From a halophilic archaeon SHRA6 (GTDB taxonomy: Archaea > Halobacteriota > Halobacteria > Halobacteriales > Haloferacaceae): DNA of 64,000 bases. The position numbers were made by a program, and so were the translations under genes. The stretch is taken from NCBI GenBank assembly GCA_005239175.1, contig ML241294.1, positions 248,001 to 312,000 of the forward strand, in the 5' to 3' direction. The notes below the pieces were generated by a model. That model had not been told where the DNA came from. It searched no databases and was given only the letters and a program-made list of their open reading frames with translations. Numbering within the stretch: position 1 is the stretch's first letter; the number at the start of each line of letters is the position of its first letter. Of this stretch, positions 47,566 to 63,959 are shown in pieces.

Positions 47566-48192
47566 ATGAGCAGGGAGTCTACTTCTGGACCAGCATGTGT
47601 CTGGAACAATTCCGGGTGTGAAGGCACACCGTACTGTCCACCCCGATGCCCACGGTTTATTGACTACGCTGGGTCTGCTTGCGTCGTCCGACTTGCGGAA
47701 TCTGCTGATCGCGAGGAGATCGTGGACATGTACGACAGACTCGATGTTCATAGCCGAACAATGGGGGTTCCACCGACCGATCGACCACGAATCGAGTCGT
47801 GGATTGAGAGGCTGCTTGCAGACGGATGGAACCTCGTGGCAGTGGCCGATTCGATCGTGATTGGCCACGTCGTCGTGATTCCGGCGGATTCGGAGACACC
47901 ACAGTTCCTCATTTTCGTCGACGACGAGTACCAAAACCGGGGAATCGGCACAGAACTAATCAAGCAACTCATCGCCTACGCCGACGAGCACGATCACGAA
48001 CGGTTGACTCTCGACGTTTCGACGGGCAACGACAGAGCAATAACAGTCTACCGAAACGTCGGTTTTGAGGTCGTCGAACGGATGCGAACTGAACTCGAAA
48101 TGGAACTCCCGCTTCGGGATTCGCTGACGAACCGACTCCGTCGGCCGCCCGCTGCTCGTGAGAACCCTGAACTACCCGACCGAGAAAACTAA
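47566..48192 (+). CDS. GNAT acetyltransferase with N-terminal Cys-rich segment
   Basis: 208-aa protein. Residues ~10-30 are Cys-rich (CVWNNSGCEGTPYCPPRCPRF), a possible zinc knuckle seen in some haloarchaeal GNATs. The GNAT fold follows (VVRLAESADREEIVDMYDRLD; IFVDDEYQNRGIGTELIKQLIAYA carries the acetyl-CoA loop QNRGIG; LTLDVSTGNDRAITVYRNVGFEVVERM). Substrate unknown. Starts upstream of the UbiD operon, on the same strand but with its own promoter. Confidence 0.82.
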   Translation: MSRESTSGPACVWNNSGCEGTPYCPPRCPRFIDYAGSACVVRLAESADREEIVDMYDRLDVHSRTMGVPPTDRPRIESWIERLLADGWNLVAVADSIVIGHVVVIPADSETPQFLIFVDDEYQNRGIGTELIKQLIAYADEHDHERLTLDVSTGNDRAITVYRNVGFEVVERMRTELEMELPLRDSLTNRLRRPPAARENPELPDREN

Positions 48193-48235: not shown

Positions 48236-48243
48236 TTTATTTA
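48236..48243 (+). promoter_or_regulatory. TATA box of the UbiD operon
   Basis: TTTATTTA, about 29 bases before the ATG at 48272. This spacing implies a leaderless transcript and decided that start over the in-frame ATG at 48245. Confidence 0.5.
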
Positions 48244-48271
48244 TATGTGTGGAAATATCGTGATAGAGTAT

Positions 48272-48772
48272 ATGTGTGGCGAGTATGTAACGTCGGAAGC
48301 CAACCTTCCGGAGGAGCCGACGACCGGCGAAATACGGCTCCAGGTGACCGACAAAGAGACGAAAAAAATATTCACGACCCGCGCACGGGTCGGACGGACT
48401 CCCGAAGCGCTCGAAAATCCGGAGCCGTTAACCGTCGTACAGGGGCCACACGAGAACATCAAAGAAGAGTGGTATATCGAGATTATCGAAACAGATCCCG
48501 ACGGCAATCGAATTGACATCGAGTTGCTCGATTCAATCATCGAAGACCTCGACGATGAGCCAAACGTCATCAACACTCGATCGACCGAATTGAAAGTGTT
48601 ATTAGAGTATCTCACACGAACCGGCAAGTACAACTCTGTCTCAGAAGCGAGTCGATCAGTAATGCTCGACTGGATCGCTGATCGGCACCCTGAGCTATTA
48701 TCGGCATATGTCGATCGGAAGGTCGAAGCCGACAGGGAAGGCCTGTTGACCGATCTCCGAAGCGACAAATGA
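48272..48772 (+). CDS. Unknown protein heading the UbiD operon
   Basis: 166-aa acidic soluble protein. First ~95 residues beta-rich (TTGEIRLQVTDKETKKIFTTRARVG...), the last ~60 helical (STELKVLLEYLTRTGKYNSVSEASRSVMLDWIADRHPELLSAYVD). The latter has a faint ribbon-helix-helix or small-dimer look but I am not sure. ATGA overlap with the UbiD gene shows translational coupling, so it may regulate or bind the decarboxylase. Not a family I recognise. Confidence 0.65.
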   Translation: MCGEYVTSEANLPEEPTTGEIRLQVTDKETKKIFTTRARVGRTPEALENPEPLTVVQGPHENIKEEWYIEIIETDPDGNRIDIELLDSIIEDLDDEPNVINTRSTELKVLLEYLTRTGKYNSVSEASRSVMLDWIADRHPELLSAYVDRKVEADREGLLTDLRSDK

Positions 48773-50274
48773 GTACTGACTCTCTTCGAGCGTACGTCGA
48801 TCGGCTTGCCGCCCACGGAGATCTTGTGCAGATCGACGACCCGGTGTCGTGGAACCTCGAAGCAAGCGCGTTGACGATGCGGCTCAACGAGGCCGACGGG
48901 CCGATCCCGCTATTCCGAAACGCCGATGGCGCACAGTTACTCGGCGACCCGTATCGTGGAAGTCAATGCCGCCCATGGGACCGGATTGCAACGGGACTCG
49001 GCCTCTCGCGTGAACTCTCCCGACGGGAATATTACGAAGCCGTGATCGATCGACTCAGAAACCCAGTCGACCCAGTCACGGTCGATCGGGAGGACGCGCC
49101 CTGTAAATCCGTCGTCGAGACCGAGGAGCCGGATCTGTTGGAGTTACCGTGGCCGTTTATTCACGCCGGTGACGGTGGACGATACTCGAACCTCCACACA
49201 ATGGTTGCACCGGATCCAGACTCCGAGTGGGTCGATTGGTCGTATCACCGCGCGATGATACACGACAGCCAGTCAGCCAGCGTGTTATTGTTGGCCGGCG
49301 AGCAGACGCCTAACCTCTATTATTACAAGTACGAGCGCCGCGAAGAGCCGATGCCGGTCGCGATCGTCGTCGGCGCGGAGCCAGCAGTTCAGGCAACCTC
49401 GGTGATGTGGATTCCGACCGGTCGCAGTGAGGCTCGCTACGCGGGCGGGCTGAAAGGAGGGCCGATCGAACTCGTCGAGTGTGAGACAAACGATCTTCTC
49501 GTCCCCGCGTCTGCAGAACTCGTCATCGAAGGACGAATCGTGCCAGGTGCCCGTCGAGACGAAGGACCGTTCGGCGATTACTTTGGCTACATGCATGGAC
49601 CGCGGCGATCGATGCCAGCGCTGCAAGTCGACGCAATCACCCACCGGCCACGGCCAATCATTCCATACTGTGTCGAAGGAAGCGGCGTCGGCCGCACAGA
49701 GAACACGACCAGCTCCATGGAGGCTGCCTGTGTTGGCCCTGACGCGACCTTGGGGCTTCGGGCGGCTGGCTACGAGGTCGAGTGCTGTGGTCCGTGGCAA
49801 TCGACCCCGCGGACAGTGTACACAATCTCGACGCCGACAAAATCCTCCGAGCGACTCCACGAACTCGCGAACTTCATTTACACGACCTGGGGAATGTTGC
49901 ATGTCGACTTCTTCGTGTTTGTCGACGAGGATGTCGATCCGCTCGATCAGCGAGCAGTGCTCGACGCGCTCGCGAGACACGCCGATCCGAGCGAAGACTT
50001 CCACCAGTTCGGCCGCGAGAACATGCCAAAGGTCCCGCTTAATATATATCAAACCCCGAGCGAGAAGGGCAACATCCAGACAGGAACCTCGAAGGCAAAA
50101 ACCGCAAAAGCGTACATCGACGCAACGCGAGACAGGTCCCACGCGAGCCCCGAGGCCGATCACCGCGCACTGTCGCGCGCAGACGCAAGGGAGATCCTCC
50201 GCGAAGCAGGTGTTGCGGTCGGTGAGTCCGACCCAACAAGATCGAACCTGTCGAGTACTGGTGATCAAACATGA
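48769..50274 (+). CDS. UbiD-family decarboxylase (intact)
   Basis: 501-aa enzyme of the prenyl-FMN-dependent UbiD family, which reversibly decarboxylates aromatic or unsaturated acids. R161 in YHRAMIHDSQSASVLLLAG, and the E265/D270 pair in RDEGPFGDYFGY, correspond to the catalytic Arg-Glu-Glu/Asp set; SAELVIEGRI precedes it. AGGLKGGPIELV is the FMN-contact segment. Activity needs prenyl-FMN from UbiX, for which no gene is in this window. Coupled by ATGA to both neighbours. Substrate unknown; the aromatic-degradation cluster suggests an aryl carboxylate. Confidence 0.88.
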   Translation: MSTDSLRAYVDRLAAHGDLVQIDDPVSWNLEASALTMRLNEADGPIPLFRNADGAQLLGDPYRGSQCRPWDRIATGLGLSRELSRREYYEAVIDRLRNPVDPVTVDREDAPCKSVVETEEPDLLELPWPFIHAGDGGRYSNLHTMVAPDPDSEWVDWSYHRAMIHDSQSASVLLLAGEQTPNLYYYKYERREEPMPVAIVVGAEPAVQATSVMWIPTGRSEARYAGGLKGGPIELVECETNDLLVPASAELVIEGRIVPGARRDEGPFGDYFGYMHGPRRSMPALQVDAITHRPRPIIPYCVEGSGVGRTENTTSSMEAACVGPDATLGLRAAGYEVECCGPWQSTPRTVYTISTPTKSSERLHELANFIYTTWGMLHVDFFVFVDEDVDPLDQRAVLDALARHADPSEDFHQFGRENMPKVPLNIYQTPSEKGNIQTGTSKAKTAKAYIDATRDRSHASPEADHRALSRADAREILREAGVAVGESDPTRSNLSSTGDQT

Positions 50275-51644
50275 CGGCGGTTCGAGCGTTGATAGATCGA
50301 TTGGTCGACAGCGACGAGGCGGTGACAGTCGACAAACGGCTCCACTGGGACGGAGAGGTCACTGCTGTCGCCGCAGAGGCGGCGCGAACGGGCGGACCCG
50401 GGATCGTATTCGCCGATACCCCGGGAGAACTTGGGCTCGCGAGTGGGACCCTCGCAGCGACGAACGGGTTTCGTTCCCAGTCACCGTCAACGTGGTCACG
50501 ACTGTGTGCAGCACTCGATCTCGAATCGTCGTCGTATCGAGCGTTGTTGTCAACGATTGCGACAGCAGCCGAGGCCGAACCAGATCGAGCACCGATCGAG
50601 GCAACAGTGTCAGTCGAGCCGGATCTGTATAACCTGGGGCTTCCGACGCTCGAGCCGGGTGGACGGCCCACAGTCACTCTCGGAGTGATCGCCGGGAAGG
50701 TCGATTCGGAAGTAACCTGGGCACCCATCCGAGGTGATGTTCAACGCTATGATCACCTTCGGCTGTCCGTTCCGAAAGCGTTCGCCACGCGGTGTGCGCC
50801 AAAGGCTGAGGTGGTGGTCGCGCTCGGTGTGCCGCCTGGCGCGTATTTCGCGGCGATCGAACGCTGGACGCTAGATCGGCCCGACGCTGCGGTATTGCCG
50901 CGAGCTGCGGGACTCACCGACGTTTCAGTTGGGACCCATGGATCGATACTCGTTCCCGCAGAGAGCGAGTCGCTGCTTGCGGGAAATATCACCTCCCAAG
51001 TCACCCAGCCCGAAGGGCCGGCGGCCGCATGGGAACAGCTGTGTGAAACCGAATCAATCGACGTTTCGATCTCGACAATTACGACCCGCCCAGAGCCGAT
51101 CGTTCCTATCGCTCCGCTCGGAACGCCGCTGGCAGACGACGTGGCAATCACAGGACTGATCGAAGCGGCTCGACTGTTCAGACGAGTCAACAACTATTGG
51201 GGTGTCGCGCCAATGCAATGGATTCAGCTCCCTGCCGAGGCTGGATTAGGGTTTTGTATCGTTTCGAGTGAAATCCTGTATGCAGGATTCGACTGGCAGC
51301 TCGCGAACGCGCTGTTTTCATTTTCGGACCTCTTCGACAAGGTGTTAATCCTCGACGAAGCGGCTGACCCGAGCGACCTTCCACGGGCGATCGACAACAT
51401 GTGGGTCAAAGCCCACCCTGCAAACGACTGGGTATTCAGCGGGCCGAACGCGCCGGCACCGACTGCCCCCGAGTATCGGACAGACGGTGAGCCCGGCTCT
51501 GAGCTGTATATCAACGCCACGTGGGATGTCAGCTGGGATGAAGAATACATCGCCCCACGGGTGACCTATGAAAACTCCTATCCTGAGAACATCCGCGAAC
51601 GGGTTGAAAAGCGGTGGCGCGATCTTGAACTGGAGGATCTATGA
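50271..51644 (+). CDS. Degenerate UbiD-like paralogue
   Basis: 457-aa protein similar to UbiD along its length (PDLYNLGLPTLEPGGRPTVTLGVIAGK; DHLRLSVPKAF; C-terminal VNNYWGVAPMQWIQLPAEAG...VLILDE). The active-site motif EGPFGD/E reads EGPAAA (E248 kept, A253 in place of the second acid, FG lost), and the AELVIEG segment reads SESLLAG. It is therefore probably inactive alone and may be a partner subunit of the intact UbiD upstream. ATGA overlaps at both ends. Start fixed by the overlap. Confidence 0.75.
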   Translation: MTAVRALIDRLVDSDEAVTVDKRLHWDGEVTAVAAEAARTGGPGIVFADTPGELGLASGTLAATNGFRSQSPSTWSRLCAALDLESSSYRALLSTIATAAEAEPDRAPIEATVSVEPDLYNLGLPTLEPGGRPTVTLGVIAGKVDSEVTWAPIRGDVQRYDHLRLSVPKAFATRCAPKAEVVVALGVPPGAYFAAIERWTLDRPDAAVLPRAAGLTDVSVGTHGSILVPAESESLLAGNITSQVTQPEGPAAAWEQLCETESIDVSISTITTRPEPIVPIAPLGTPLADDVAITGLIEAARLFRRVNNYWGVAPMQWIQLPAEAGLGFCIVSSEILYAGFDWQLANALFSFSDLFDKVLILDEAADPSDLPRAIDNMWVKAHPANDWVFSGPNAPAPTAPEYRTDGEPGSELYINATWDVSWDEEYIAPRVTYENSYPENIRERVEKRWRDLELEDL

Positions 51645-52594
51645 GCGGCTTCGATCGAATCGCTGTCGGCACAGGCTCACCAGAGGGCGTCAATAGCGTC
51701 TACGTACTCGCCGATCGTGGCGTTGTCATAGATCCCGGTCCGCCAACAGCGTGGACTGCACTCCGGAGCGGGCTTGAGCGATCCGGCCTACACATCAACG
51801 AGATCGAGCACGTGATCGTGACACACTGGCACGCAGACCACGCAGGGTTGGCCTGCCGGCTCGCGTCCGCTGCGGATGCGACACTGCACATGCACGAAGC
51901 AGACGCGCCGCTTGTCGGCACCTACGCGGAATCACGGGTCGAACGGATCGAGCGCGACCGCTCGACGCTGGAACGATGGGGCGTCCCTACGGCGGTACGA
52001 GACGCAGTTATCAATGGCGACACGCCGTCGCCGCTTCCCGACACCTATCCGATCGATGGCCACCACGACGGCGACACGGTCGCTGGACTCGAACTCATCC
52101 ACACTCCAGGACACACCGCCGGACATACCTCGATCGTCGCTGCGGAGGCGGTGTTCCTCGGCGACCTACTTTTACCGACGTATACCCCGAACGTCGGGGG
52201 CAGCGACACCCGTCTGGATGATCCACTCGGGGTGTACCTCCAATCACTCGATCGGCTGAGCGACCGGGCTGCAGGTCGGAGCGGCGAACCGGGACACGGA
52301 ACCACACTACCAATCAATGAAGCGGTCGAGACCGTTCGGGCCCACCACCGTGAGCGGGCCAAACGCGCCTACAAGATTGTCGCAGAGCGATCGAACGCAA
52401 CACCGTGGACGGTCGCAACCGAGTTGTTCGGTCACATGGCGGGCGTTCACGCGAAGTTCGGTCCCGGAGAAGCGGCCGCACATCTCGATCGGTTAGCCGA
52501 AATCGGGGTCGTCGATCGAATCGAAACTGCTGGGGAACCGGTCCGTTATGCGATTTCCTCGCCGTTTCCATCGGGAACAAACTTGACGCCGTAA
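51641..52594 (+). CDS. MBL-fold metallo-hydrolase, LACTB2-like
   Basis: 317-aa protein. HWHADHAGLA is the metal motif HxHxDH; ELIHTPGHTAGHTS and VFLGDLLLP give the remaining ligands. The C-terminal ~65 residues (HRERAKRAYKIVAERSNATPWTVATELF...) resemble the winged-helix tail of LACTB2-like hydrolases. The family hydrolyses thioesters or nucleic acids. In an aromatic-CoA cluster a CoA-thioesterase role is plausible (inference). The 3' end overlaps the convergent HMGS-like gene by 49 bp. Confidence 0.85.
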   Translation: MSGFDRIAVGTGSPEGVNSVYVLADRGVVIDPGPPTAWTALRSGLERSGLHINEIEHVIVTHWHADHAGLACRLASAADATLHMHEADAPLVGTYAESRVERIERDRSTLERWGVPTAVRDAVINGDTPSPLPDTYPIDGHHDGDTVAGLELIHTPGHTAGHTSIVAAEAVFLGDLLLPTYTPNVGGSDTRLDDPLGVYLQSLDRLSDRAAGRSGEPGHGTTLPINEAVETVRAHHRERAKRAYKIVAERSNATPWTVATELFGHMAGVHAKFGPGEAAAHLDRLAEIGVVDRIETAGEPVRYAISSPFPSGTNLTP

Positions 52595-53982
52595 CGCGGG
52601 ACGCCTTCCTGTTCGTAAATGCGTCTGATTGACGCAGTAACTCGATCGCCGACAGACGCGTGTTCGAGGTCTGCGTCGGTGAGTTGGCCGGGGAGCCGAA
52701 TCGAGCCGTCGCCAGCGGGGAGTTCGACGATCGCTGCGCCGTAGGCGCCGTCGCGCTGTTGGTAGCGTGCAAACTCCGGCGGGGCACCGCCCTGGCCGAT
52801 CGTCGCCAGCGCGACAATCTTACCGGTTCGGTTAGCGGGGACTGACTCGAATTCGACGCGAGCGTGACAGGATTGACACGCACCCCGTGGCGGAAACGAA
52901 ACGGCCCCACACTCCGGGCACTTCCCGGCAATCAACCGGTATCGAGCGTCCAACGATTCGCGCCACGTCGGGAGGCTGACGTTCGCCCCGCCGCCGCCGA
53001 CCTCACGTCCTTTTAGATGATCTCGGCGACGGAGGTAGTGCGTATACGAGATCGACACACCAGTGTCGAGATCCGAAAGCCCAGCAACGTCGATCGACCG
53101 CTGGGCGTCAGCCACCTCGCAGGCAAACGCTGCGGCGGTTCCGCCGCCAAAAAAGGCGGCTACGGTTTGGGCATCATCTGTCGCGGCTGCCAGGGCAGCG
53201 AGGAGCCCGATCGGGACCGTTGCCGCACCTGCATCGCCAATTCGGTCGGCGACGAGTCCAGCCGAGACCGCAGCATTGTCGATCGGCAACGAGCGAGCGA
53301 GGCGGTACGGCAGCGATCCGTTCGGCTGATGGATTGCAGCCGCATCAATTGTCTCGTCACCCTTGTTGAGCGCTGAGACCGCCTGTGAGAGCGCGGTTGA
53401 CATCGCATTCCGCTCATAGGTCGTGATTCCGAGTGAATCGATCGCGTCGTCTGTTCGGAACCGGATGCCGGGAGATTCGTCGGCGTACCACGTCCCGTCG
53501 CGAACAGCGATCACTGCGTCGTCGTCAATGAGCAGCGCCGCTGCCCCGGCACCGAGCGGATGATCGCTTTCGGCAGGGTCACCCCGTGGGCAGTCCGTTG
53601 CGAGGACGAGCACTCGGCCGCTCGCATGCAGTGCGGCGTCGATTGCTTCCGCGGCAGCGGCAGTGTGGTTTGTGTGGACTGACTGGCCGACCGATCGGGG
53701 GAGTCCGAGCGCCCGGACAACACGGCTTGCAAAGTCGCCTTCGGCGACCGGTGGAGTTGTGCTCGCGATCGCGAGGCGGTCGAGGGCTGATCGATCGACA
53801 TCGCAGTCCTCGAAGAGCCGGGCTCCGGCAGCAATCGCCATCGTTATCGCGTCCTCGTCGGCCGCCGGAACCGCCTTCGTCTCGACGCCTGCGGCTGTCG
53901 AGTGGCCCCACGCCTCGACGATCTCATCAGTTGATAGCCGCGCGCGTGGAACGTACACGCTGGCTGCGTCGATTCCCCTCAT
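52546..53982 (-). CDS. HMG-CoA-synthase-like/DUF35 fusion lacking the Cys
   Basis: 478-aa fusion. Residues ~1-310 are the HMGS/KAS-III-like thiolase fold (IDAASVYVPRARLSTDEI; AAIHQPNGSLPYRLA keeps the His). Where HMGS has its catalytic Cys, this protein has H106 (VHTNHTAAAAEA), so condensation is unlikely. Residues ~338-470 are DUF35: zinc knuckles C355/C358 and C369/C372 (KCPECG; ACQSCH), then an OB fold. DUF35 proteins bind acyl-CoA and partner with thiolases. ATGA overlap with the thiolase gene upstream makes a two-protein acyl-CoA complex likely. Confidence 0.8.
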   Translation of the reverse strand: MRGIDAASVYVPRARLSTDEIVEAWGHSTAAGVETKAVPAADEDAITMAIAAGARLFEDCDVDRSALDRLAIASTTPPVAEGDFASRVVRALGLPRSVGQSVHTNHTAAAAEAIDAALHASGRVLVLATDCPRGDPAESDHPLGAGAAALLIDDDAVIAVRDGTWYADESPGIRFRTDDAIDSLGITTYERNAMSTALSQAVSALNKGDETIDAAAIHQPNGSLPYRLARSLPIDNAAVSAGLVADRIGDAGAATVPIGLLAALAAATDDAQTVAAFFGGGTAAAFACEVADAQRSIDVAGLSDLDTGVSISYTHYLRRRDHLKGREVGGGGANVSLPTWRESLDARYRLIAGKCPECGAVSFPPRGACQSCHARVEFESVPANRTGKIVALATIGQGGAPPEFARYQQRDGAYGAAIVELPAGDGSIRLPGQLTDADLEHASVGDRVTASIRRIYEQEGVPRYGVKFVPDGNGEEIA

Positions 53983-55151
53983 GCGGACACCTCCTCGCGC
54001 TCGAAGATGTGAACTGTGGTTCCGCCGCCGCTGCCGCCGACGTTGTGCGCGAGCGCGTACTGGAGATCGTCGATCTGGACACTTGCGGTCCCGTGGAACT
54101 GCTCGAATAGTTCGACGACCTGACCAGTTCCAGTTGCGCCGATGGGGTGGCCCTTCGATTTGAGCCCGCCGCTCGTATTCGTCGGAAGATCGCCGTCTGG
54201 ATCGGTAACTCCCTCACGGAGCAGGGTGGCGGCCTCACCGCGTTCACAGAAGCCAAGATCCTCGTAGGCGAGCAGCTCTGCGATCGCAAAGCAGTCGTGC
54301 ACCTCTGCGAGGTCGATCTCCTCTGGGCCAATTCCTGCTTCCTCGTAGGCCGCCTCTCCCGCACGGATGCTCGCAGGGATCCCAGTGAGAGTCTCTCGTT
54401 GAAACAGACCAACGCGGCCGCTTGAGGCGCCCGCGCCGGCGACACGCATCGATGTCTCACCGAGCTCCCGGGCGGCATCTTCACTCGCGACGAGCACCGC
54501 GCTCGCACCGTCGGTAGTCGGACAACAGTGATAGAGATTGAGCGGATCCGCCACGGACGGTGCGTTCATCGCGTCTTCGAGGGTACACTCGAAGCCGAGG
54601 TGGGCTTTCGGATTCTTCGCGCCGTTGGCGTGGTTTTTAACCGCGACCCGGCTGAGGTCCTCGATCGTCGTATCGTACGCCCCGATGTGGGCGCTTGCCA
54701 TCTGTGCGTACACGCCAGCAAAGGTTGTGCCGCTCATTCGCTCCCACTCGGTCTCGCCACTTACCCCCAGCCACCATCGCGTATGGTCTGAGCTGGTGTC
54801 TGTCATCACTTCGTAGCCGCCCGCCAACGCGATGTCGACCATCCCCGATCGGACAGCAGTCACTGCCTGTCGGAGCGCGAAGCCGCTAGCCGCACAGGCG
54901 TTTTCGACCCGCGTTGTCGGGATGCCATGCAATCCGACGTGCTCTGTGACCGCCGGAGCGCTGAGGCCGATCTGTCGACCCCCGACCCCGAGTGTCCCAA
55001 GATACGCCTCGTCGATCGCGTCGGGCGAAAACGCGGCTGGTGCGCTCTCAAGTGCGCTGTCAAAGGCCGTCTCGAAGAGCGACAGATACGTCTCGTCGGG
55101 ATAGGAGCCGAACGGCGACTGTCCGGCACCAATGATATACGCCTCATTCAT
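53979..55151 (-). CDS. Thiolase-family acyl-CoA enzyme (SCP-x-like)
   Basis: 390-aa thiolase. NEAYIIGAGQSPFGSYPDE opens it; the nucleophile is C86 in VENACAASGFALRQA; HDCFAIAEL and SKGHPIGATGTGQV are the other conserved His motifs. The last canonical CGGGG segment reads HNVGGSGGG, as in SCP-x-type thiolases. I place the start at 55151, just after the minus-strand promoter. Pairs with the DUF35 fusion; thiolytic or retro-aldol cleavage of a CoA ester (inference). Confidence 0.87.
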   Translation of the reverse strand: MNEAYIIGAGQSPFGSYPDETYLSLFETAFDSALESAPAAFSPDAIDEAYLGTLGVGGRQIGLSAPAVTEHVGLHGIPTTRVENACAASGFALRQAVTAVRSGMVDIALAGGYEVMTDTSSDHTRWWLGVSGETEWERMSGTTFAGVYAQMASAHIGAYDTTIEDLSRVAVKNHANGAKNPKAHLGFECTLEDAMNAPSVADPLNLYHCCPTTDGASAVLVASEDAARELGETSMRVAGAGASSGRVGLFQRETLTGIPASIRAGEAAYEEAGIGPEEIDLAEVHDCFAIAELLAYEDLGFCERGEAATLLREGVTDPDGDLPTNTSGGLKSKGHPIGATGTGQVVELFEQFHGTASVQIDDLQYALAHNVGGSGGGTTVHIFEREEVSA

Positions 55152-55230
55152 AGATAGCTGTGGACACCCGGCTGGTAAAAAAGTACAGGTGTGGGTGGTA
55201 TTATATGGGTGTACCTCGCTATCGAACAGT
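55152..55230. promoter_or_regulatory. Divergent promoters: thiolase and acyl-CoA dehydrogenase
   Basis: TATTATATGG near 55199 is ~27 bases before the rightward ATG; the minus-strand CTTTTTTACC near 55176-55183 is ~25 bases before the leftward ATG. GTACAGGTGT ... GGGTGTAC between them forms an imperfect inverted pair that could serve a shared regulator. Confidence 0.5.
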
Positions 55231-56385
55231 ATGAGCCTGATAGCGCGTGCGCTCACCGACGAGCAAATCGAGTACCGAGACCGGGCCGCTTCGTTCGTTG
55301 AGGAGGTTGTCGAACCCCGGGCCGAAGAGATAGAAGCGAGCGATGAGTTCCCCCGTGACGTAATGGAAGCCGCGGGCGACCGCGGATTGCTCGGCATTCT
55401 CCTCCCGGAGGAATACGGCGGTGAAGGGGCTGATTTCGTCTCTTACTGCGCGGCGATCGAAGAGATTGCCAGCGCGAGCGGTGCAGTCGCCGAAAGCATC
55501 CAAGGACACACCTTTGCCGCGCTGCCGATTGCTGCCCACGGCACGACAGCCCAAAAGAAGGCGTATCTCGAAGCGATGGCACGCGGCGAGTCGATCGGCT
55601 CGATGTTGCTCACAGAACCGGATGCCGGAAGCTCTCCAAGCGAGCTTTCGACCACCGCAACACTCGACGACGGGCACTACCGGATAACCGGCGAGAAGTC
55701 ATTCGGCACAAACGCTGGGGTCGCAGATGTTCATCTCGTCGTCGCCAGAAAACGACCTGCGCCCGAGTCAGGCCACGGGGTAAGTGTCTTTCTCGTTCCT
55801 GGACCGGACAACGCCGCCGGCTTTGGGTTCGATCGAGCCGAGTTCATGGGAATGCGCGGGCACGTAACGGGTGATTCGACCTTTTCCGACGTCGAAATTC
55901 CTGAATCGGCGCTGTTGGGAGAGATCGGCCAGGGCTTTCGGATCGCGATGGGAACGATCGACCGCGCGCGGACTGGCCTCGGCGCGATCGGCACGGGAAT
56001 CGCGACCGCAGCCTTCGAGGATGCCGTCGCCTACGCCGGCGATCGAACCCAGGGCGGCCAAGCAGTCGGCGAATACCAGGCGGTGCAGGTACTCATCGCG
56101 GAGATGGATACGAAACTCGACGCTGCCAGACATCTCGTCTACCAGTCGGCGTTCGCGATCGCCGACGACGAGGCCGATACGCGCCTATCGAGTAAAGCGA
56201 AGTACGCTGCCAGTGAGGTTGCCGAATACGTGACCCGGAACGCGATTCAGGTCCACGGTGGCAGCGGCTATCGGAAGGACAAGCCCCTCGAACGCTATCA
56301 CCGTGACGCCAAGATCCTGAGCATCATCGGCGGGACTACCGAGATCCAAAAGACGACGATCGCAAAACAGGCCCTAGATCTGTAA
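55231..56385 (+). CDS. Acyl-CoA dehydrogenase
   Basis: 384-aa FAD enzyme oxidising acyl-CoA to enoyl-CoA. N-terminal helical domain starts LIARALTDEQIEYRDRAASFVEEVVEPRAEEIE; FAD/CoA strand segment SMLLTEPDAGSSPSELSTTATLDDGHYRITGEKSFGTNAGVADV; catalytic Glu region HGGSGYRKDKPLERYHRDAKI...GGTTEIQKTTIAKQAL. Start at 55231 fits the TATA spacing. No mitochondrial-type extension; length typical. Confidence 0.92.
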   Translation: MSLIARALTDEQIEYRDRAASFVEEVVEPRAEEIEASDEFPRDVMEAAGDRGLLGILLPEEYGGEGADFVSYCAAIEEIASASGAVAESIQGHTFAALPIAAHGTTAQKKAYLEAMARGESIGSMLLTEPDAGSSPSELSTTATLDDGHYRITGEKSFGTNAGVADVHLVVARKRPAPESGHGVSVFLVPGPDNAAGFGFDRAEFMGMRGHVTGDSTFSDVEIPESALLGEIGQGFRIAMGTIDRARTGLGAIGTGIATAAFEDAVAYAGDRTQGGQAVGEYQAVQVLIAEMDTKLDAARHLVYQSAFAIADDEADTRLSSKAKYAASEVAEYVTRNAIQVHGGSGYRKDKPLERYHRDAKILSIIGGTTEIQKTTIAKQALDL

Positions 56386-57595: not shown

Positions 57596-58438
57596 TTACT
57601 CGGACGATCCTGGCTCTTTTTCGCCCGTCTCGACCGCAAGGAAGTCCGGTTCGCGTTTGTCGAGGAACGCATCGACCCCCTCTTTTGCGACATCGGATCC
57701 GAGCAGGCGGTTCTGGAGCTCACGTTCGTGTGCAAGCGCGTCGGACAACGGCAGTTCGAGTCCTTCGTTGACCGCAAGCTTGTTGTTGCCGACCGCGAGA
57801 TTCGGCTTTTCGGTGATCATCGCCGCGAACTCAAACGCGGCGTCTTCGACTTCTTCGGGTGGGTGTATTTCGTCGAAGATCCCGCGTTCGGTCGCCTCAG
57901 CGGGCGTGAGCGTCTCGCCGGTGATCATCATCTTGAGGGCGGTCGATCGATCGATGTAGCGTGGCAGCAGTTGGGTGCCCGCCTCTCCGGCGATCAGCCC
58001 GAGGTTGATCTCAGGCATCCCAACGTTGTACGAGTCGTCGTCGCCGACATACCGGAAGTCACACGCCAGCGCGAGTTCGAGCCCACCACCCATGCAGTGG
58101 CCGTTGACGAGCGCAATGAAGATCGTGTCGGTTGTCCGCATCTTCATAATCACTTCTTTGCTCGTCTGGCTGGCGTAGCCAATCTGTTGACCCGACTCTG
58201 TCTGGAGTTCGCCGATGTCGAACCCGGTGGAAAAGAACTTCTCGTTCTCGCTGCCGAAGATCGCGACGCGCACGTCGTCGTCGAAGCGGATCGACTCGAC
58301 CGCACGCTGTAATTCTAGCAACACGTCGATGTTGTGGGCGTTCGCAGGGGGGCGATTGAGCCGAAGCACACCAATGTGATCCTCGGTTTTCGTCGTGAAA
58401 TACTCTAGGTCCAGCTCGTCGAACGGCTTGAGTGGCAT
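57596..58438 (-). CDS. Enoyl-CoA hydratase/isomerase
   Basis: 280-aa crotonase-fold enzyme. Oxyanion strand AIFGSENEKFFSTGFDIGEL, NGHCMGGGLELALACDFRYVGD, MPEINLGLIAGEAGTQLLPRYID (a Glu and Gly-rich loop of the active site). Usually hydrates enoyl-CoA; in Paa pathways it may isomerise an epoxide or oxepin-CoA. I use ATG 58438 over the GTG 9 bases upstream because a CTTATAGG box is 27 bases before it. Confidence 0.88.
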   Translation of the reverse strand: MPLKPFDELDLEYFTTKTEDHIGVLRLNRPPANAHNIDVLLELQRAVESIRFDDDVRVAIFGSENEKFFSTGFDIGELQTESGQQIGYASQTSKEVIMKMRTTDTIFIALVNGHCMGGGLELALACDFRYVGDDDSYNVGMPEINLGLIAGEAGTQLLPRYIDRSTALKMMITGETLTPAEATERGIFDEIHPPEEVEDAAFEFAAMITEKPNLAVGNNKLAVNEGLELPLSDALAHERELQNRLLGSDVAKEGVDAFLDKREPDFLAVETGEKEPGSSE

Positions 58439-58509
58439 ACACTCCACCCATAACCATCCACCTATAAGTAGCTTTCTTCAACCCGAGAGTACGCCGGAAA
58501 CGACCGAAC

Positions 58510-58523
58510 CGACGCACGCGTCG
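58510..58523. terminator. Palindrome downstream of the paa operon
   Basis: CGACGC-AC-GCGTCG, a 6-bp perfect inverted repeat about 40 bp after the last paa-operon stop (leftward transcription). No T tract follows, so this is a weak terminator candidate. Confidence 0.3.
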
Positions 58524-58563
58524 CTGGCCAACCACGCGTTCCGGTCCCGACGGTAAACCGCGT

Positions 58564-58740
58564 CTACCGCCCCGTATCGGGATTCTTTCCGTCGTACTTG
58601 ATTCGCTCGAACACTGTATCGCAGCCGTTGCAGTAGTACTGTGTCTTCGAGATCTCGCTGCCGAACGCAGATTCCTGTTCTGTATCCCCAGATCCACAGA
58701 ACGGGCAGACCGCATCCGGACCCGCAATATCACTCGGCAT
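58564..58740 (-). CDS. Stand-alone PaaD-type zinc-ribbon protein (58 aa)
   Basis: 58-aa protein. VCPFCGSGDTEQESAFGSEISKTQYYCNGCDTVFERIKYDG corresponds to the C-terminal zinc ribbon of bacterial PaaD (CPxCGS...FGS...C..C...F..FK), with four Cys. In bacteria it is fused to the MIP18 half; here the MIP18 half is a separate gene (59705-60106). The ATG at 58740 lies 2 bp after the paaC stop, so it is the last gene of the paa operon. Confidence 0.8.
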   Translation of the reverse strand: MPSDIAGPDAVCPFCGSGDTEQESAFGSEISKTQYYCNGCDTVFERIKYDGKNPDTGR

Positions 58741-58742
58741 AG

Positions 58743-59507
58743 TCAGTTAATTTCGAACAGCTTGTTTTCGGTCCCGCGGAGCTGTCTGAGGTCTGCCTCC
58801 GAGATCGATCCGCCGCCAACGCGACGGCGTGCCTCGTCCCACGTGTCCGGATCTGGGGCGTCGAAATCGACGCCATCCAAGGACACGGCAGTCCCCTCGA
58901 AAAGATCCGTGTAGTGGGCGATGAACGCTTCGCGGATCTCGGCAACCGATCGGTCCGTGAACCCGCTCGTGAAGACCGGATCGGTCTCCTCGTCGTAGGT
59001 CGCAGGACCAATAAACGACAATGCCTGTGGAAGCGTCGTCTCCAGTGCGGCCTGGATCGTGTCAGGGGCGCTCTCAGCGAGCGTCTCTAGACGAGCGTCG
59101 TGGTATTCCAGGTGGAAGTACTCGTCTTCGCCCATTTTGGTAAGCATGCCCTGGAGATCCTCGATCGCGATTGCGTCGAGAAGATACCACGCCGCGCGAT
59201 CAGCCGGGGCAGTCGACGCCATGTAGGTCGGCCACTCGCCGTCGATCGAATCCAGACAGGCCGCGTTGGCGAACTCGGTCGCGTCACGATCGCCGTGGAT
59301 CCACTCAAGATCACGCCCCTGTGCTTGGAGCCGGCTCGCAAGCTGTCGAACGTGACCGATCTCCTCTTGAGAGGCGCTCGCACCACCGATGTCGTCTTCG
59401 AGTGAGGGGCCTGCAAGGGCCCACTGACCGTAGCGGTGACCGAGGATGAGCTTCGTATCCACTATCGCTTGCATGTAGTCGACAGCAGGATCGGGCCACT
59501 CGTCCAT
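58743..59507 (-). CDS. paaC: Phenylacetyl-CoA epoxidase subunit PaaC-like
   Basis: 254-aa four-helix-bundle subunit of the Paa-type ring epoxidase. DTKLILGHRYGQWALAGPSLEDDIGGASASQEEIGHVRQLASRL (QEEIGH) and MGEDEYFHLEYHDARLETLA (EYFH) fit PaaC. In bacterial enzymes PaaC is the structural partner of catalytic PaaA. Starts 1 bp after the paaB stop. Confidence 0.85.
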   Translation of the reverse strand: MDEWPDPAVDYMQAIVDTKLILGHRYGQWALAGPSLEDDIGGASASQEEIGHVRQLASRLQAQGRDLEWIHGDRDATEFANAACLDSIDGEWPTYMASTAPADRAAWYLLDAIAIEDLQGMLTKMGEDEYFHLEYHDARLETLAESAPDTIQAALETTLPQALSFIGPATYDEETDPVFTSGFTDRSVAEIREAFIAHYTDLFEGTAVSLDGVDFDAPDPDTWDEARRRVGGGSISEADLRQLRGTENKLFEIN

Positions 59508-59508
59508 C

Positions 59509-59703
59509 TCAGATCACCCCCGGCGTCTCGGCTTTGACCTCGAGAATGTGCTCGCGACGGACGACCGCAAGGTAATCCCAGTCCTCTTCGTCGAACGTGT
59601 TGCGCGCGTACATCCGAGCGAGCCGATCGCTATCGGCGGTCACGTTGCCGATATGGAGCGTCTCGTCTCCCTGGTTGATCCGCGCAAAGACTTCGTATTT
59701 CAT
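59509..59703 (-). CDS. paaB: Phenylacetyl-CoA epoxidase subunit PaaB-like
   Basis: 64-aa protein, shorter than bacterial PaaB (~95 aa). YEVFARINQGDETLHIGNVTADSDRLARMYARNTFDEEDWDYLAVVRREHI matches PaaB, a small subunit that bridges the PaaA/PaaC dimers. Single-base gaps to its neighbours. Confidence 0.87.
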   Translation of the reverse strand: MKYEVFARINQGDETLHIGNVTADSDRLARMYARNTFDEEDWDYLAVVRREHILEVKAETPGVI

Positions 59704-59704
59704 A

Positions 59705-60106
59705 TTAGAGGCTAATTCCGGAGTTTCGCATCTTTTCGCGCACGTCCGAGGTCAACATGTCCTTTGTCCAAACTGGGTCCCACACGACATCGATGTCGAC
59801 AGCGGCAACACCGTCAACGACACGAAGACCGCTTTTGATGTCGTTTTCGATGAACCCGTAGGCCGGACAGCCCATACACGGGTAGGACATCTCGACTGTG
59901 ACCTGTCCGTCGCGTTCGGTCACATCGTAAATCATCGCCATCTCGACGAGGCTTACTGGGATGTGTGGATCTGGAATTTCGTCAAGGACGTCCCAGAGCT
60001 CCGACTCCAGCGCAGTTGCCTCAGTGCGCCGGCGCTGGATGAATTCGCTGTCTGTCGCCCTGGTATCCGTGTCGGCCGCACCGGTGTCCGCGTGTGAAGT
60101 CGACAT
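59705..60106 (-). CDS. paaD: PaaD-like MIP18/DUF59 protein
   Basis: 133-aa protein of the MIP18/SufT fold, probable iron-sulfur maturation factor for the oxygenase. DPHIPVSLVEMAMIYDV is the family motif, and SYPCMGCPAY carries the CxxC-like cysteines (C77, C80). It lacks the C-terminal zinc ribbon of bacterial PaaD, which is encoded separately at 58564-58740. Placed between paaA and paaB, unlike the ABCDE order of bacteria. Confidence 0.85.
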   Translation of the reverse strand: MSTSHADTGAADTDTRATDSEFIQRRRTEATALESELWDVLDEIPDPHIPVSLVEMAMIYDVTERDGQVTVEMSYPCMGCPAYGFIENDIKSGLRVVDGVAAVDIDVVWDPVWTKDMLTSDVREKMRNSGISL

Positions 60107-60107
60107 G

Positions 60108-61043
60108 TTACACCTCGACGCTGACCCGGCCAGACTGGATCATATTGACGTACTGTTCGTTTGCCGGACCGCGCGATCGCCACCGATCGATGACATCCGA
60201 CCACGAGATCGGCTCGTCGAACCGCCACTGTTTGTTCGCCTCGTCGAACGCAACCGGCATGTCGTACTCGAGGACGTACTCGTCGGCTTCCTCGTCGTAG
60301 TGCGCCGGCACGTCGAGGTCGAGTTCGTTCATGAGCGGCATCGCACGGCCGAGCCAGTCTTCGCGAAGCTCGTCGTTCGACTTGCCTTTGATTCGGTATT
60401 CGAGCTGATCGTCGTGTTTTTTCTTGTCGTCGGGCAGTCCGAACCACTCGAGCGCCATCGGGAACATCCAGTCGATCGCCTCCTGGACCTTCGCTTTCGT
60501 CTTGTCGTTTTTGTTCGCGAGTCGGCGCATCCACGTCTCACCATGGCGGAGGTGGAATTGCTCTTCTTTGTTAACCTTCGTCAGTGCGCGTTTCCACGGC
60601 GCGTAGGAGGTGTTCTCGTGGATGTCTCCAAGCAGGACAATCCCTGCTCTGTCGAACATCCCGTGTGCACAGACGAGCTCGGCGAAGTTGTCGATGTGCT
60701 GATCGAAACCATAGGTGTTTCTGAACTCGTGAGGCTCGCGCTCGTAGATCAGGTCGTGGCGATCCTCTCCGAGGTTCTCGAGTAGTCGGTACGCAATGTG
60801 TCCGTGGCCCAGTTCGTCCTGGAGGACGCTGATGCAGGACGCTCGGGCGTCTGCTGACGGTGCGTTCAATGATTGCTCGTAGTACGCAGGCGCACTCATC
60901 AGCTCGGTGTCCGCAGACACGGTGAGGATCTGCTTGAGCGCCTTCTTGTAGCCGTCGGTCATTTCGTCAGTCGATTCAATCATCTTCCCGTTTTGAACCT
61001 GTTTCTTTAGTTGTTCTTCCGTAGGCATGTCGAAATCTTCCAT
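60108..61043 (-). CDS. paaA: Phenylacetyl-CoA epoxidase catalytic subunit PaaA-like
   Basis: 311-aa diiron oxygenase subunit. YYEQSLNAPSADARASCISVLQDELGHGHIAYRLLENLGED carries ligands E..H (DELGHGHIA) and KVNKEEQFHLRHGETWMRRLAN gives EExFH. Expected to insert O2 across the aromatic ring of an aryl-CoA. The TATA-like element 61062-61071 precedes the ATG by ~25 bases, with a TGTATACA element upstream. First gene of the operon paaA-D-B-C-zinc ribbon. Confidence 0.88.
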   Translation of the reverse strand: MEDFDMPTEEQLKKQVQNGKMIESTDEMTDGYKKALKQILTVSADTELMSAPAYYEQSLNAPSADARASCISVLQDELGHGHIAYRLLENLGEDRHDLIYEREPHEFRNTYGFDQHIDNFAELVCAHGMFDRAGIVLLGDIHENTSYAPWKRALTKVNKEEQFHLRHGETWMRRLANKNDKTKAKVQEAIDWMFPMALEWFGLPDDKKKHDDQLEYRIKGKSNDELREDWLGRAMPLMNELDLDVPAHYDEEADEYVLEYDMPVAFDEANKQWRFDEPISWSDVIDRWRSRGPANEQYVNMIQSGRVSVEV

Positions 61044-61061
61044 CTACCCATTGTAGTCGAG

Positions 61062-61086
61062 AGTGTATAATTGTTTTCTGTATACA
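61062..61086 (-). promoter_or_regulatory. paaA promoter with TGTATACA element
   Basis: Minus-strand AATTATACAC (61062-61071) is the TATA box, spaced for a leaderless start at 61043. The palindrome TGTATACA at 61079-61086 lies directly upstream, where a regulator would act; TGTATA recurs at 61092-61097. Confidence 0.5.
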
Positions 61087-61118
61087 ATCGCTGTATATCC
61101 GAGTTCCCACAGACGCCG

Positions 61119-61403
61119 CTATGGCCCTTGACTGGTTTTCAGCTTGAGATCGGATCGTGGTTTCGCAATACACGTTAGCGCGTATCCGTCCTCCTTTTCA
61201 CTCGTCGAGAGAAACATCCCCTGGGTCTGTTCGACCTCGCCTTCCTCGACGCGCAGTGCCGAACAGACGCCACAGACACCCATCCGGCACTGATATGGGA
61301 GATCCATTCCGGACTCTTCGGCGACCTCCAAGATCGGTCGGTTCGATGGCACCTCGATCGTTCGCCCCTCGTCGACGAACTCTACTGTGTAGTACTCGAC
61401 CAT
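61119..61403 (-). CDS. Stand-alone [2Fe-2S] ferredoxin
   Basis: 94-aa plant-type ferredoxin. LPYQCRMGVCGVCSALR plus a later Cys (YALTCIAKP) gives CxxxxCxxC...C. Bacterial PaaE joins a FAD/NAD reductase domain to such a ferredoxin; here only the ferredoxin half exists, so another reductase must feed it. Coupled to the GNAT gene (2-bp gap) and 75 bp before paaA, so it is the probable electron donor of the oxygenase. Start at 61403 (MVEYYTVEF). Confidence 0.88.
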   Translation of the reverse strand: MVEYYTVEFVDEGRTIEVPSNRPILEVAEESGMDLPYQCRMGVCGVCSALRVEEGEVEQTQGMFLSTSEKEDGYALTCIAKPRSDLKLKTSQGP

Positions 61404-61405
61404 GG

Positions 61406-61903
61406 TCACTGACCCTGGTCTGTCGGCCTCTCGTATACGTGTTCGACCGGCTGAAAGCCCTGATCCTCGTAGAATTTCATTGCGTGTGAGTCGCCGTGAA
61501 TCGTGTCGACACGGTAGAAGTCGACGTCTTTGTCCGATTCGGAGAACCACTCGTGGGCGGCGTCGAGCAGCCGTTCCCCGAGACCATTACCCCGGTGGTC
61601 TGTCTCGACAAAATGGCCGTTGATATACCCGTGGTTTTTCAGCCGAAAAATCGGATGGTTGCCCATAATGCGTGCCTCCAGCGCCCCGACGATTGCCGCG
61701 GATCCTTCGGGCTCGGCGACAAGAACAGTACCGTACTTCGATCCGAGCAGCTGGTTCTCAAAATATTGGAGCCACCGGTCATCTGCGCTTTCGTTGTGGT
61801 GGTAGCGGCGATCGAACTCCGAAAGGTGATCGGTGAATCCGTGCCACAGCTCAAGCAGCGCTTCTCCGTCGTCTGCTGTCGCCGTTCGTATCTGATACGA
61901 CAT
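61406..61903 (-). CDS. GNAT acetyltransferase in the paa cluster
   Basis: 165-aa protein. IRTATADDGEALLELWHGFTDHL opens the fold; GHFVETDHRGNGLGERLLDAA is the acetyl-CoA loop (RGNGLG); HAMKFYEDQGFQPVEHVYERP closes it. Not found in bacterial paa operons. Co-transcribed with the ferredoxin; may detoxify an intermediate or acetylate a protein, unknown. Confidence 0.85.
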   Translation of the reverse strand: MSYQIRTATADDGEALLELWHGFTDHLSEFDRRYHHNESADDRWLQYFENQLLGSKYGTVLVAEPEGSAAIVGALEARIMGNHPIFRLKNHGYINGHFVETDHRGNGLGERLLDAAHEWFSESDKDVDFYRVDTIHGDSHAMKFYEDQGFQPVEHVYERPTDQGQ

Positions 61904-62327
61904 AACCGATCAGTCGTGGTGCTACTACTAAAAATCTCACGTCGTCAGTCTCGAAACGAGATACCGAGATAATCGGTAAACAGTAGATGTATACAAAAAC
62001 TGTTTTCGCTATTTTCGCTCTTCATTACACACATATGATTGTAATTTTTTGCTTGGGTTTGAGAGGGTCGCTCGTACTAGCTGAACACGTCAATTGTACA
62101 CGATTATTATTGTTAATTTCGGGTAGAGCCTACGTAAATGAAATGCGTATACGAATACTGTATTCAATTTTGTATACGGCTACAACAAGGGTTTCATGCC
62201 ACGAAAACGTCGATTAGCTGCAGGGCTATGACCCAGAAATCCGGCGATAAACTAAGAGAACGTAGACGCGCTCTGTCGCTAAATACCAACGATCGACCAG
62301 CAACTCCGAGTGGTTTACGCGGCCAGT
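61904..62327. other. Regulatory-rich intergenic region
   Basis: 424 bp between the ligase stop and the GNAT/ferredoxin operon start. No gene seen; AT-rich near 61985-62175. Contains the inverted-repeat cluster 61949-61995, and further GTATAC cores at 62147-62152 and 62172-62177. Confidence 0.6.
61926..61995 (-). promoter_or_regulatory. Operator-like inverted-repeat cluster
   Basis: Upstream of the GNAT/ferredoxin operon, from the gene outward: TTTTAGTA box 61926-61933 (TATA candidate); TCTCG-AAA-CGAGA 61949-61961; TACCGA-N5-TCGGTA 61962-61978; TGTATACA 61988-61995. Three perfect dyads in 50 bp is far from ordinary. Confidence 0.55.
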
Positions 62328-63959
62328 CTACTCGCGTTCCTTGTCACGGAGTTCAGTACGGCGGATCTTGCCGGTCTCAGTCCGCGGCAGTGACACAACG
62401 AATTCGACGGCACGCGGATACTTGTACGGCGCAAGCGTCTGTTTGACGTGTGTCTGTATCTCGTCAATTAGTTTCTCGGAGCCTGTTTCTCCGTCTGCGA
62501 GGACAACGAACGCCTTGACAATCTCGCCACGTTCCTCGTGTGGGCTGCCAACGACAGCAACTTCAATGACTGCCTCGTGTTCTTCGATGACCGCCTCGAC
62601 CTCAGGCCCGGGGATATTGTAGCCGCTGGAGACAATGAGATCGTCGCTTCTGGATTTGTACTCGAAGCGGCCGTCGGCGCGCTGAATAAAAATGTCCCCT
62701 GGCAGCGACCAGCCGTCTTCGATCGCATCCGCTTGCTTGTTTGGACGGTTCCAGTACGCGATGCCAGTCGGTCCACGGACGGCCAACAGTCCGGCCTCAC
62801 CACGCGGGAGATCCTCACCGGTGTCAGGGTCGATGATTTTACACTCGTATCCGGGTACTGGATAGCCCGTCGCAGTGGGGTCAACCTCTTCGTCGTAGCG
62901 GTGACTGATGAATATGTGAAGCATCTCCGTCGTGCCGATACCGTCGAGCAGTTCGACGCCGTATTCGGACTCAAAGTTATTGAACGTCGTTGGGGTAAGT
63001 GGTTCACCCGCGCTTAGTCCGAGTCGAAGCGACGACACGTCGTACGCTTCGGGACCGTCAGGGAACTTCGAGAGAATCTGATTGAATCCGGTGGGAATCG
63101 ACGCGAGTACCGAAATCCCGTGAGTTTCTGTCGCTTCGAGGAGATCGCCGGGCGACGCGTTTTCGACGAGACTGGTGCTCGCCCCGAACCGGAACGGGAA
63201 GGTGACGAGACAACCATAGCCGTAGGCGAACGGCAACGGCGGGTTCCCGCCAAACACGTCGTCGGGAGTCGGCTCGATGCAGTATCGCGCGTAGGTGTCT
63301 GCGGTCGCGAGCACGTTTCGGTGGGTGTGGATCGCCCCCTTCGGTTCGCCGGTCGTCCCGCTCGTGTACAACATCAACGCGAGGTCGTCGCGGTTAGTGT
63401 CGTAAGCGGTAAGTTCTGGCTCTGCGTCGGCGAGAAGCTCCTCGAACTGATGGTGGTCGTGGTCGACATCCTCACCAGCGACGATCACCGACTCGACGGA
63501 TTCGAGGTTCGGGAGCGCGTTTTCGACCTCCTCGAGCAGCTGATCGTACACGATCACGGCGCTGGCTTCCGCGTTGTTAATGATGTGGACGAGTTCTTTC
63601 GCACGAAGGAGCTTCATCGACGGCAGCGCGACCGCGCCGATCTTCTGTACTGCGAGACAGGAGACGATCGCTTCCGGTCGGTTCGTGAATCGGGCGACGA
63701 CGCGATCGCCCGGCTCGATGCCGAGATCGACAAGTGCGTTGCCGAGACGATTGACCTGCGCCTGCAGGTCGGCGTAGGTGATAACATCGTCCTCGAATTT
63801 GATCGCGGGCCGATCGCCGTGACCCGCCTCGACATGGCGGTCGACCAACTCCTCGACGACGTTTATTTGGTGTGGGTAATGTGCCTCTGGTACGGCGTGA
63901 ACGTACTCCGGGGAGATATCCGCGTCAGGTAAGTACTCCGTTGGTACTGTCGGCTGCAT
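62328..63959 (-). CDS. Benzoate-CoA-ligase-like acyl-CoA synthetase
   Basis: 543-aa AMP-forming CoA ligase. YTSGTTGEPKGAIHTH is the phosphate loop; DGIGTTEMLHIFIS, SLPGDIFIQRADGRFEYKSRSDDLIVSSGYNIPGPEVE and PRTETGKIRRTEL give the remaining ANL motifs (Lys near the end). Overall it is closest to benzoate/4-hydroxybenzoate-CoA ligases, rather than the phenylacetate ligase PaaK, so the aromatic substrate may be a benzoate-type acid. Leaderless-type minus-strand TAAAACT box near 63981-63988. Confidence 0.87.
   Translation of the reverse strand: MQPTVPTEYLPDADISPEYVHAVPEAHYPHQINVVEELVDRHVEAGHGDRPAIKFEDDVITYADLQAQVNRLGNALVDLGIEPGDRVVARFTNRPEAIVSCLAVQKIGAVALPSMKLLRAKELVHIINNAEASAVIVYDQLLEEVENALPNLESVESVIVAGEDVDHDHHQFEELLADAEPELTAYDTNRDDLALMLYTSGTTGEPKGAIHTHRNVLATADTYARYCIEPTPDDVFGGNPPLPFAYGYGCLVTFPFRFGASTSLVENASPGDLLEATETHGISVLASIPTGFNQILSKFPDGPEAYDVSSLRLGLSAGEPLTPTTFNNFESEYGVELLDGIGTTEMLHIFISHRYDEEVDPTATGYPVPGYECKIIDPDTGEDLPRGEAGLLAVRGPTGIAYWNRPNKQADAIEDGWSLPGDIFIQRADGRFEYKSRSDDLIVSSGYNIPGPEVEAVIEEHEAVIEVAVVGSPHEERGEIVKAFVVLADGETGSEKLIDEIQTHVKQTLAPYKYPRAVEFVVSLPRTETGKIRRTELRDKERE

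Follow-up and report, generated by a model that had tools for sequence, protein, structure and literature searches.

The halophilic archaeon SHRA6 carries a module of three overlapping genes, hereafter up, P1 and P2, in which a UbiD-family protein (P1) is encoded between a small protein of no known family (up) and a degenerate UbiD paralogue (P2). The three genes occur in an identical set of Halobacteria genomes and adjoin each other. P2 has lost its active-site residues, the metal-ligand positions of P1 are altered, and the host genomes nearly always lack UbiX. The module might, with a probability of roughly 0.4, be an active/decayed UbiD-fold heteromer, widespread in Haloarchaea, that has abandoned prenyl-FMN (prFMN) and (de)carboxylates its substrate with a different cofactor or with none. 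A search of the open-licence literature found no paper on the module.

Structure of the module

The module is located on the forward strand of the window (the whole 64,000-nucleotide stretch of DNA analysed here). It begins with up (48272–48772; 166 aa), whose final 4 bp, ATGA, overlap P1 (48769–50274; 501 aa). As originally predicted, P1 and P2 (50271–51644; 457 aa) are two forward-strand ORFs that share a 4-bp ATGA overlap; the third of three successive ATGA overlaps joins P2 to the gene of an MBL-fold metallo-hydrolase (51641–52594, forward strand; Pfam PF00753, E=3.4e-23). The predicted motifs are likewise present, AELVIEG...EGPFGD with R161 in P1 and SESLLAG...EGPAAA in P2. That prediction included neither the up gene (48272–48772) nor the changes at the metal-ligand positions of P1. 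A TATA-like stretch, TTTATTTATA (48236–48245, forward strand), was spotted by eye 27–36 nt upstream of the up start codon and is a possible promoter of the operon, which might be leaderless.

P1 and P2 belong to the UbiD superfamily (PF20695/PF01977/PF20696 domains, UbiD fold), P2 weakly: P1 matches PF01977 with E=1.6e-65, while P2 matches PF01977 (8.9e-10) and PF20696 (1.9e-11) weakly but over the cut-off for both, and PF20695 under the cut-off. Database records label both proteins alike as 'UbiD family decarboxylase', despite the missing active site of P2.

The start of up was picked from the lengths of its homologues, mostly 160–168 aa; the longest ORF starts at 48158. The upstream 204-aa ORF was rejected as a UbiX, having no family match in Pfam. 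Searches with up gave no hit in the PDB up to E=10, and no Pfam family matched it consistently; RefSeq plasmid records call it a 'hypothetical protein'. By eye, its C-terminal half raised the suspicion of a ribbon-helix-helix regulator; a ParD match was found in only 1 of 43 members (E=0.077).

Distribution and phylogeny

Strong P2 matches were found in 24 of the 170 genomes of the family, and strong P1 matches in the identical 24. Among 391 Halobacteria genomes, P2, up and strong P1 matches were each found in 85, and comparison of the lists showed these to be the same set, with no genome containing one of the three alone. P2 homologues without P1, named beforehand as a finding that would speak against a partner subunit, were thus looked for in the 170 family and 391 class genomes and not found. 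Moreover, up, P1 and P2 are mutually adjacent in 60 of 60 named haloarchaeal loci, and P1 and P2 overlap by exactly 4 bp in 50 of these. The proposal of a catalytic and a degenerate paralogue that are co-conserved and coupled is borne out by this distribution. In the scan of genome contigs a single P2 sequence as query gave no match, and an alignment as query gave 60 loci, every one of them haloarchaeal; the genome scan uses short exact patterns, which distant relatives may escape.

The module is present in at least 92 haloarchaeal genomes and P2 is conserved in 25 genera. RefSeq plasmid records show it to be frequent on haloarchaeal megaplasmids. Two genomes (G303 and G356) each have two copies on separate stretches.

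Phylogenetic analysis placed P1 and P2 in distinct clades, each with a support of 100/100. Six sampled species branch in the same order in both clades, which fits a pair inherited together. A simple recent duplicate or a pseudogene was ruled out for P2, given the separate clades, the full-length ORF and the conservation in 25 genera.

Active site of P1 and absence of UbiX

Comparison of 61 P1 homologues showed that R173, E277 and an Asp at position 282 are kept in all 61, which gives a complete E(D)-R-E/D triad, as is the equivalent of E233. The Mn2+-binding residues of Fdc1 are H191, E233, N168 and K391 (PMC4947166). In P1, H191 is replaced by Gln, within an ungapped stretch of the alignment, and K391 by Trp, both in 61 of 61, and the N168 position is unconstrained (mostly D/R/S/H). 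In the numbering of P1 itself, R161, E265, D270 and E221 are kept and D156, Q179 and W374 are changed. P1 therefore lacks the Mn2+/prFMN-phosphate ligand set of Fdc1, although N168, H191 and K391 are not universal in other UbiDs. At the N168 position the UbiX-dependent HudA carries Ser (PMC3650080), other archaeal UbiDs do not retain K391, and Asp occupies the H191 position in five of seven UbiDs from haloarchaeal genomes that encode UbiX; for these reasons the metal-site changes alone are not decisive. N168 is Asn in 7 of 7 haloarchaeal and 27 of 27 other archaeal UbiDs compared. Several ordinary haloarchaeal UbiDs encoded in genomes with UbiX (L117–L121) have a PGKD/PGRD loop in which Asp stands in the place of the metal ligand His191 of Fdc1.

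The best solved-structure relatives of P1 by sequence are Fdc1 and HudA. Its structural model is poor (pLDDT 63) and still matches HudA with E=9e-29.

The SHRA6 genome (99.3% complete) contains exactly two UbiDs and a single PF02441 protein, whose reading frame of 396 aa is typical of CoaBC. A UbiX elsewhere in this genome was ruled out with two models (PF02441 and TIGR00421), so the earlier remark that no ubiX is in view is true well beyond the window, UbiX being missing genome-wide. Of the 170 family genomes, exactly eight contain a second, UbiX-like PF02441 protein, and these are the same eight that have ordinary UbiDs. In 68 of 68 further module genomes the PF02441 protein is of the ~400-aa type only, and UbiX is present in 20 of 20 further ordinary-UbiD genomes. 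In total, UbiX was found in 0 of 90 module-only versus 28 of 28 ordinary-UbiD genomes (Fisher p=9.7e-28, a value uncorrected for relatedness, which overstates independence because the genomes are related). The UbiX-specific model TIGR00421, applied to a subset, gave 8 of 8 ordinary-UbiD versus 0 of 38 module-only genomes. The genome of Haloferax volcanii, used as a control, yielded neither a UbiD nor a UbiX hit. Two genomes (G038 and G092) have both the module and UbiX, and these also have an ordinary UbiD.

The original view that P1 has all the residues required to decarboxylate with prenyl-FMN is consequently not supported: R173, E277 and E282 (as Asp) are in place, but three of the metal-ligand positions are not, and the genomes are without UbiX. 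Since co-expression of ubiX is described as obligatory for UbiD (PMC10865409), the module either functions without prFMN or receives it by an unknown route. UbiX synthesises prFMN, the cofactor on which every known UbiD depends, and the retention of the module without UbiX suggests a probable UbiD enzyme of two parts that has dispensed with the usual cofactor supply. Given the rebuilt metal/phosphate site and the lack of UbiX in the hosts, the enzyme probably works with a flavin that is not prenylated, with some other cofactor or with none.

It is unlikely, in our judgement, that the module encodes a normal prFMN-dependent heteromeric UbiD whose prFMN comes from an unrelated flavin prenyltransferase, possibly up or the product of a gene elsewhere. 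The triad and the E233 equivalent of P1, intact in 61 of 61, as well as the obligate linkage of up, a protein matching no known family, are compatible with such a supply; however, we know of no flavin prenyltransferase other than UbiX, and the Mn2+ ligand positions of P1 are altered. Accessory proteins that bind prFMN and resemble neither UbiX nor UbiD in sequence do exist, for example LpdD, but the obligate need for ubiX stands against this alternative (both PMC10865409).

Genomic context

The module was found in two kinds of context. Context A, seen in the window and in roughly half of the named loci, includes a CoA ligase, Paa-type oxygenase genes, a ferredoxin, an enoyl-CoA hydratase and an acyl-CoA dehydrogenase, often with an MBL-fold protein and a thiolase. 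The MBL-fold gene lies beside the module in 25 of 60 named loci, exclusively in context A. In the window, a variably conserved set of acyl-CoA neighbours (52546–56385) comprises an HMG-CoA-synthase-like/zinc-ribbon protein (reverse strand), a thiolase (reverse strand) and an acyl-CoA dehydrogenase (forward strand). It is followed on the reverse strand (57596–63959) by an aromatic-CoA catabolic context that the context-A loci have in common: enoyl-CoA hydratase, PaaC-like, PaaD and PaaA-like oxygenase genes, a 2Fe-2S ferredoxin and a benzoate-CoA-ligase-like enzyme. The gene at 52546–53982, beside that of the thiolase, encodes a fusion of an HMG-CoA-synthase-like protein with a zinc ribbon of the ChsH2 type, and it recurs in some context-A loci.

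Context B was found in Natrinema, Natrialba, Natronorubrum, Halorientalis and Haloarcula, where the module is followed by a CoA ligase, an acyl-CoA dehydrogenase, biotin-dependent carboxylase subunits and a MaoC hydratase, with paaA nearby in one record. One of the two copies in G356 scores as the context-A type and the other as the context-B type. The common thread of both contexts is a carboxylic acid that feeds CoA-dependent catabolism.

The occurrence of the module in two different kinds of aerobic CoA-thioester context, combined with the missing UbiX and the changed metal site, would also suit a UbiD-fold scaffold that has left decarboxylation behind and performs some other reaction on intermediates of CoA pathways, for instance isomerisation, hydration or thioester handling. 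We regard this reading as improbable, since an Arg-Glu-Asp triad invariant in 61 of 61 P1 homologues would be difficult to account for unless the acid-base chemistry were related.

Loss of the active site and shifted conservation in P2

In 61 P2 homologues the loop of the H191 type is deleted and the E233 equivalent is replaced without exception, R173 is retained in only 26, and the positions of E277 and E282 vary freely. P2 thus lacks both the catalytic triad and the metal site of a prFMN-dependent UbiD decarboxylase, and an active enzyme of this type was ruled out on the basis of these residues. The loss is not a chance event, because all 61 homologues share it while the ORF stays full-length. 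P2 has 53 invariant residues, clustered C-terminally: 8 of the 193 positions of the cofactor domain are invariant, compared with 42 of the 170 that make up the C-terminal domain. Mean pairwise identity is 0.39 in the cofactor domain and 0.62 in the C-terminal domain of P2, and 0.71 and 0.66, respectively, in P1. The dimer contacts of HudA are made chiefly via the C-terminal domains (PMC3650080). The structural model of P2 has a UbiD fold (pLDDT 74.5), with a Foldseek match to HudA of E=5.8e-22.

A shifted catalytic acid in P2 had been named as an observation that would speak against a non-catalytic partner, and here the outcome is divided: the E277 and E282 positions themselves are unconserved, and W254-E255, two residues past the lost acid, is invariant in 61 of 61. 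An acid therefore persists near the P2 site, and P2 may not be completely inert. The same invariant pair could support a chemistry of its own if P1 and P2 were separate enzymes that are merely co-transcribed, a very unlikely arrangement in view of the otherwise poorly conserved cofactor domain of P2 and its strict co-occurrence with P1.

Comparison with known systems

Phenylphosphate carboxylase of Thauera/Aromatoleum resembles the module in having two paralogues of ~53–54 kDa and a small subunit, all required together; the alpha and beta subunits, PpcA and PpcB, are UbiD-family proteins (PMC7976604), and its operon also feeds CoA ligation (PMC6114531). In contrast to the module, it is anaerobic and oxygen-inhibited, and it needs K+ and Mg2+/Mn2+ (PMC6114531); the third gene of the module, up, differs by having no Pfam match. 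The module was ruled out as a phenylphosphate carboxylase, because P1 and P2 score far under the PpcA/PpcB equivalog cut-offs: 152.8 and 33.5 bits for TIGR02723 (cut-off 564.6) and 93.3 and 20.4 for TIGR02724 (cut-off 468.95).

Naphthalene carboxylase of culture N47 is likewise encoded by a cluster of UbiD-like subunits, four in that case, and followed by CoA ligation, and it has been proposed to form a complex of ~750 kDa (PMC12016498). However, by its description, it is set apart as an anaerobic system with a proposed prFMN cofactor and another gene set. Fdc1 and HudA (PA0254), which among solved structures are nearest to P1 (by sequence) and to P2 (by sequence and fold), have the same triad as P1 but are homodimers that obtain prFMN from UbiX/Pad1 and have His at the H191 position, where every P1 has Gln. 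In VdcC/VdcD, a UbiD catalytic subunit is accompanied by a small partner thought to steady the catalytic loops (PMC8379154). VdcD belongs to the zinc-ribbon proteins and has two CXXC motifs, a type of motif that the alignment of up does not show, and the partner set of the module, unlike that of VdcC/VdcD, includes a UbiD paralogue.

Proposed function

We see an even chance that the module encodes an obligate three-component UbiD-type enzyme, a UbiX-independent (de)carboxylase composed of a catalytic P1 together with P2 and up. Based on Pfam and the residues of the 61 homologues, P1 is the putative catalytic subunit and would bear the Arg-Glu-Asp triad. P2, its putative non-catalytic partner, would be a decayed paralogue that surrendered the cofactor site and retained the C-terminal oligomerisation domain, and with this combination it probably takes the place of one of the two subunits found in a typical UbiD homodimer. 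In such a heteromer P2 would probably shape or close the active site of P1, and up may be a third subunit or a maturation or regulatory factor. Operon coupling is no proof of contact between P1 and P2; the linkage, as read from the gene order, is consistent with a complex. The likeliest reaction would be the (de)carboxylation of an aromatic or alpha,beta-unsaturated acid, which might then be activated by the adjacent CoA ligase and oxidised by the products of the Paa-type oxygenase or acyl-CoA dehydrogenase genes.

As a clade that keeps the triad and is nearly always found without UbiX, the module allows UbiD chemistry without prFMN to be tested directly against the existence of a second prFMN synthase. 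Moreover, the strict pairing of an active with a decayed paralogue represents a natural test of how labour is divided between the two halves of a UbiD dimer.
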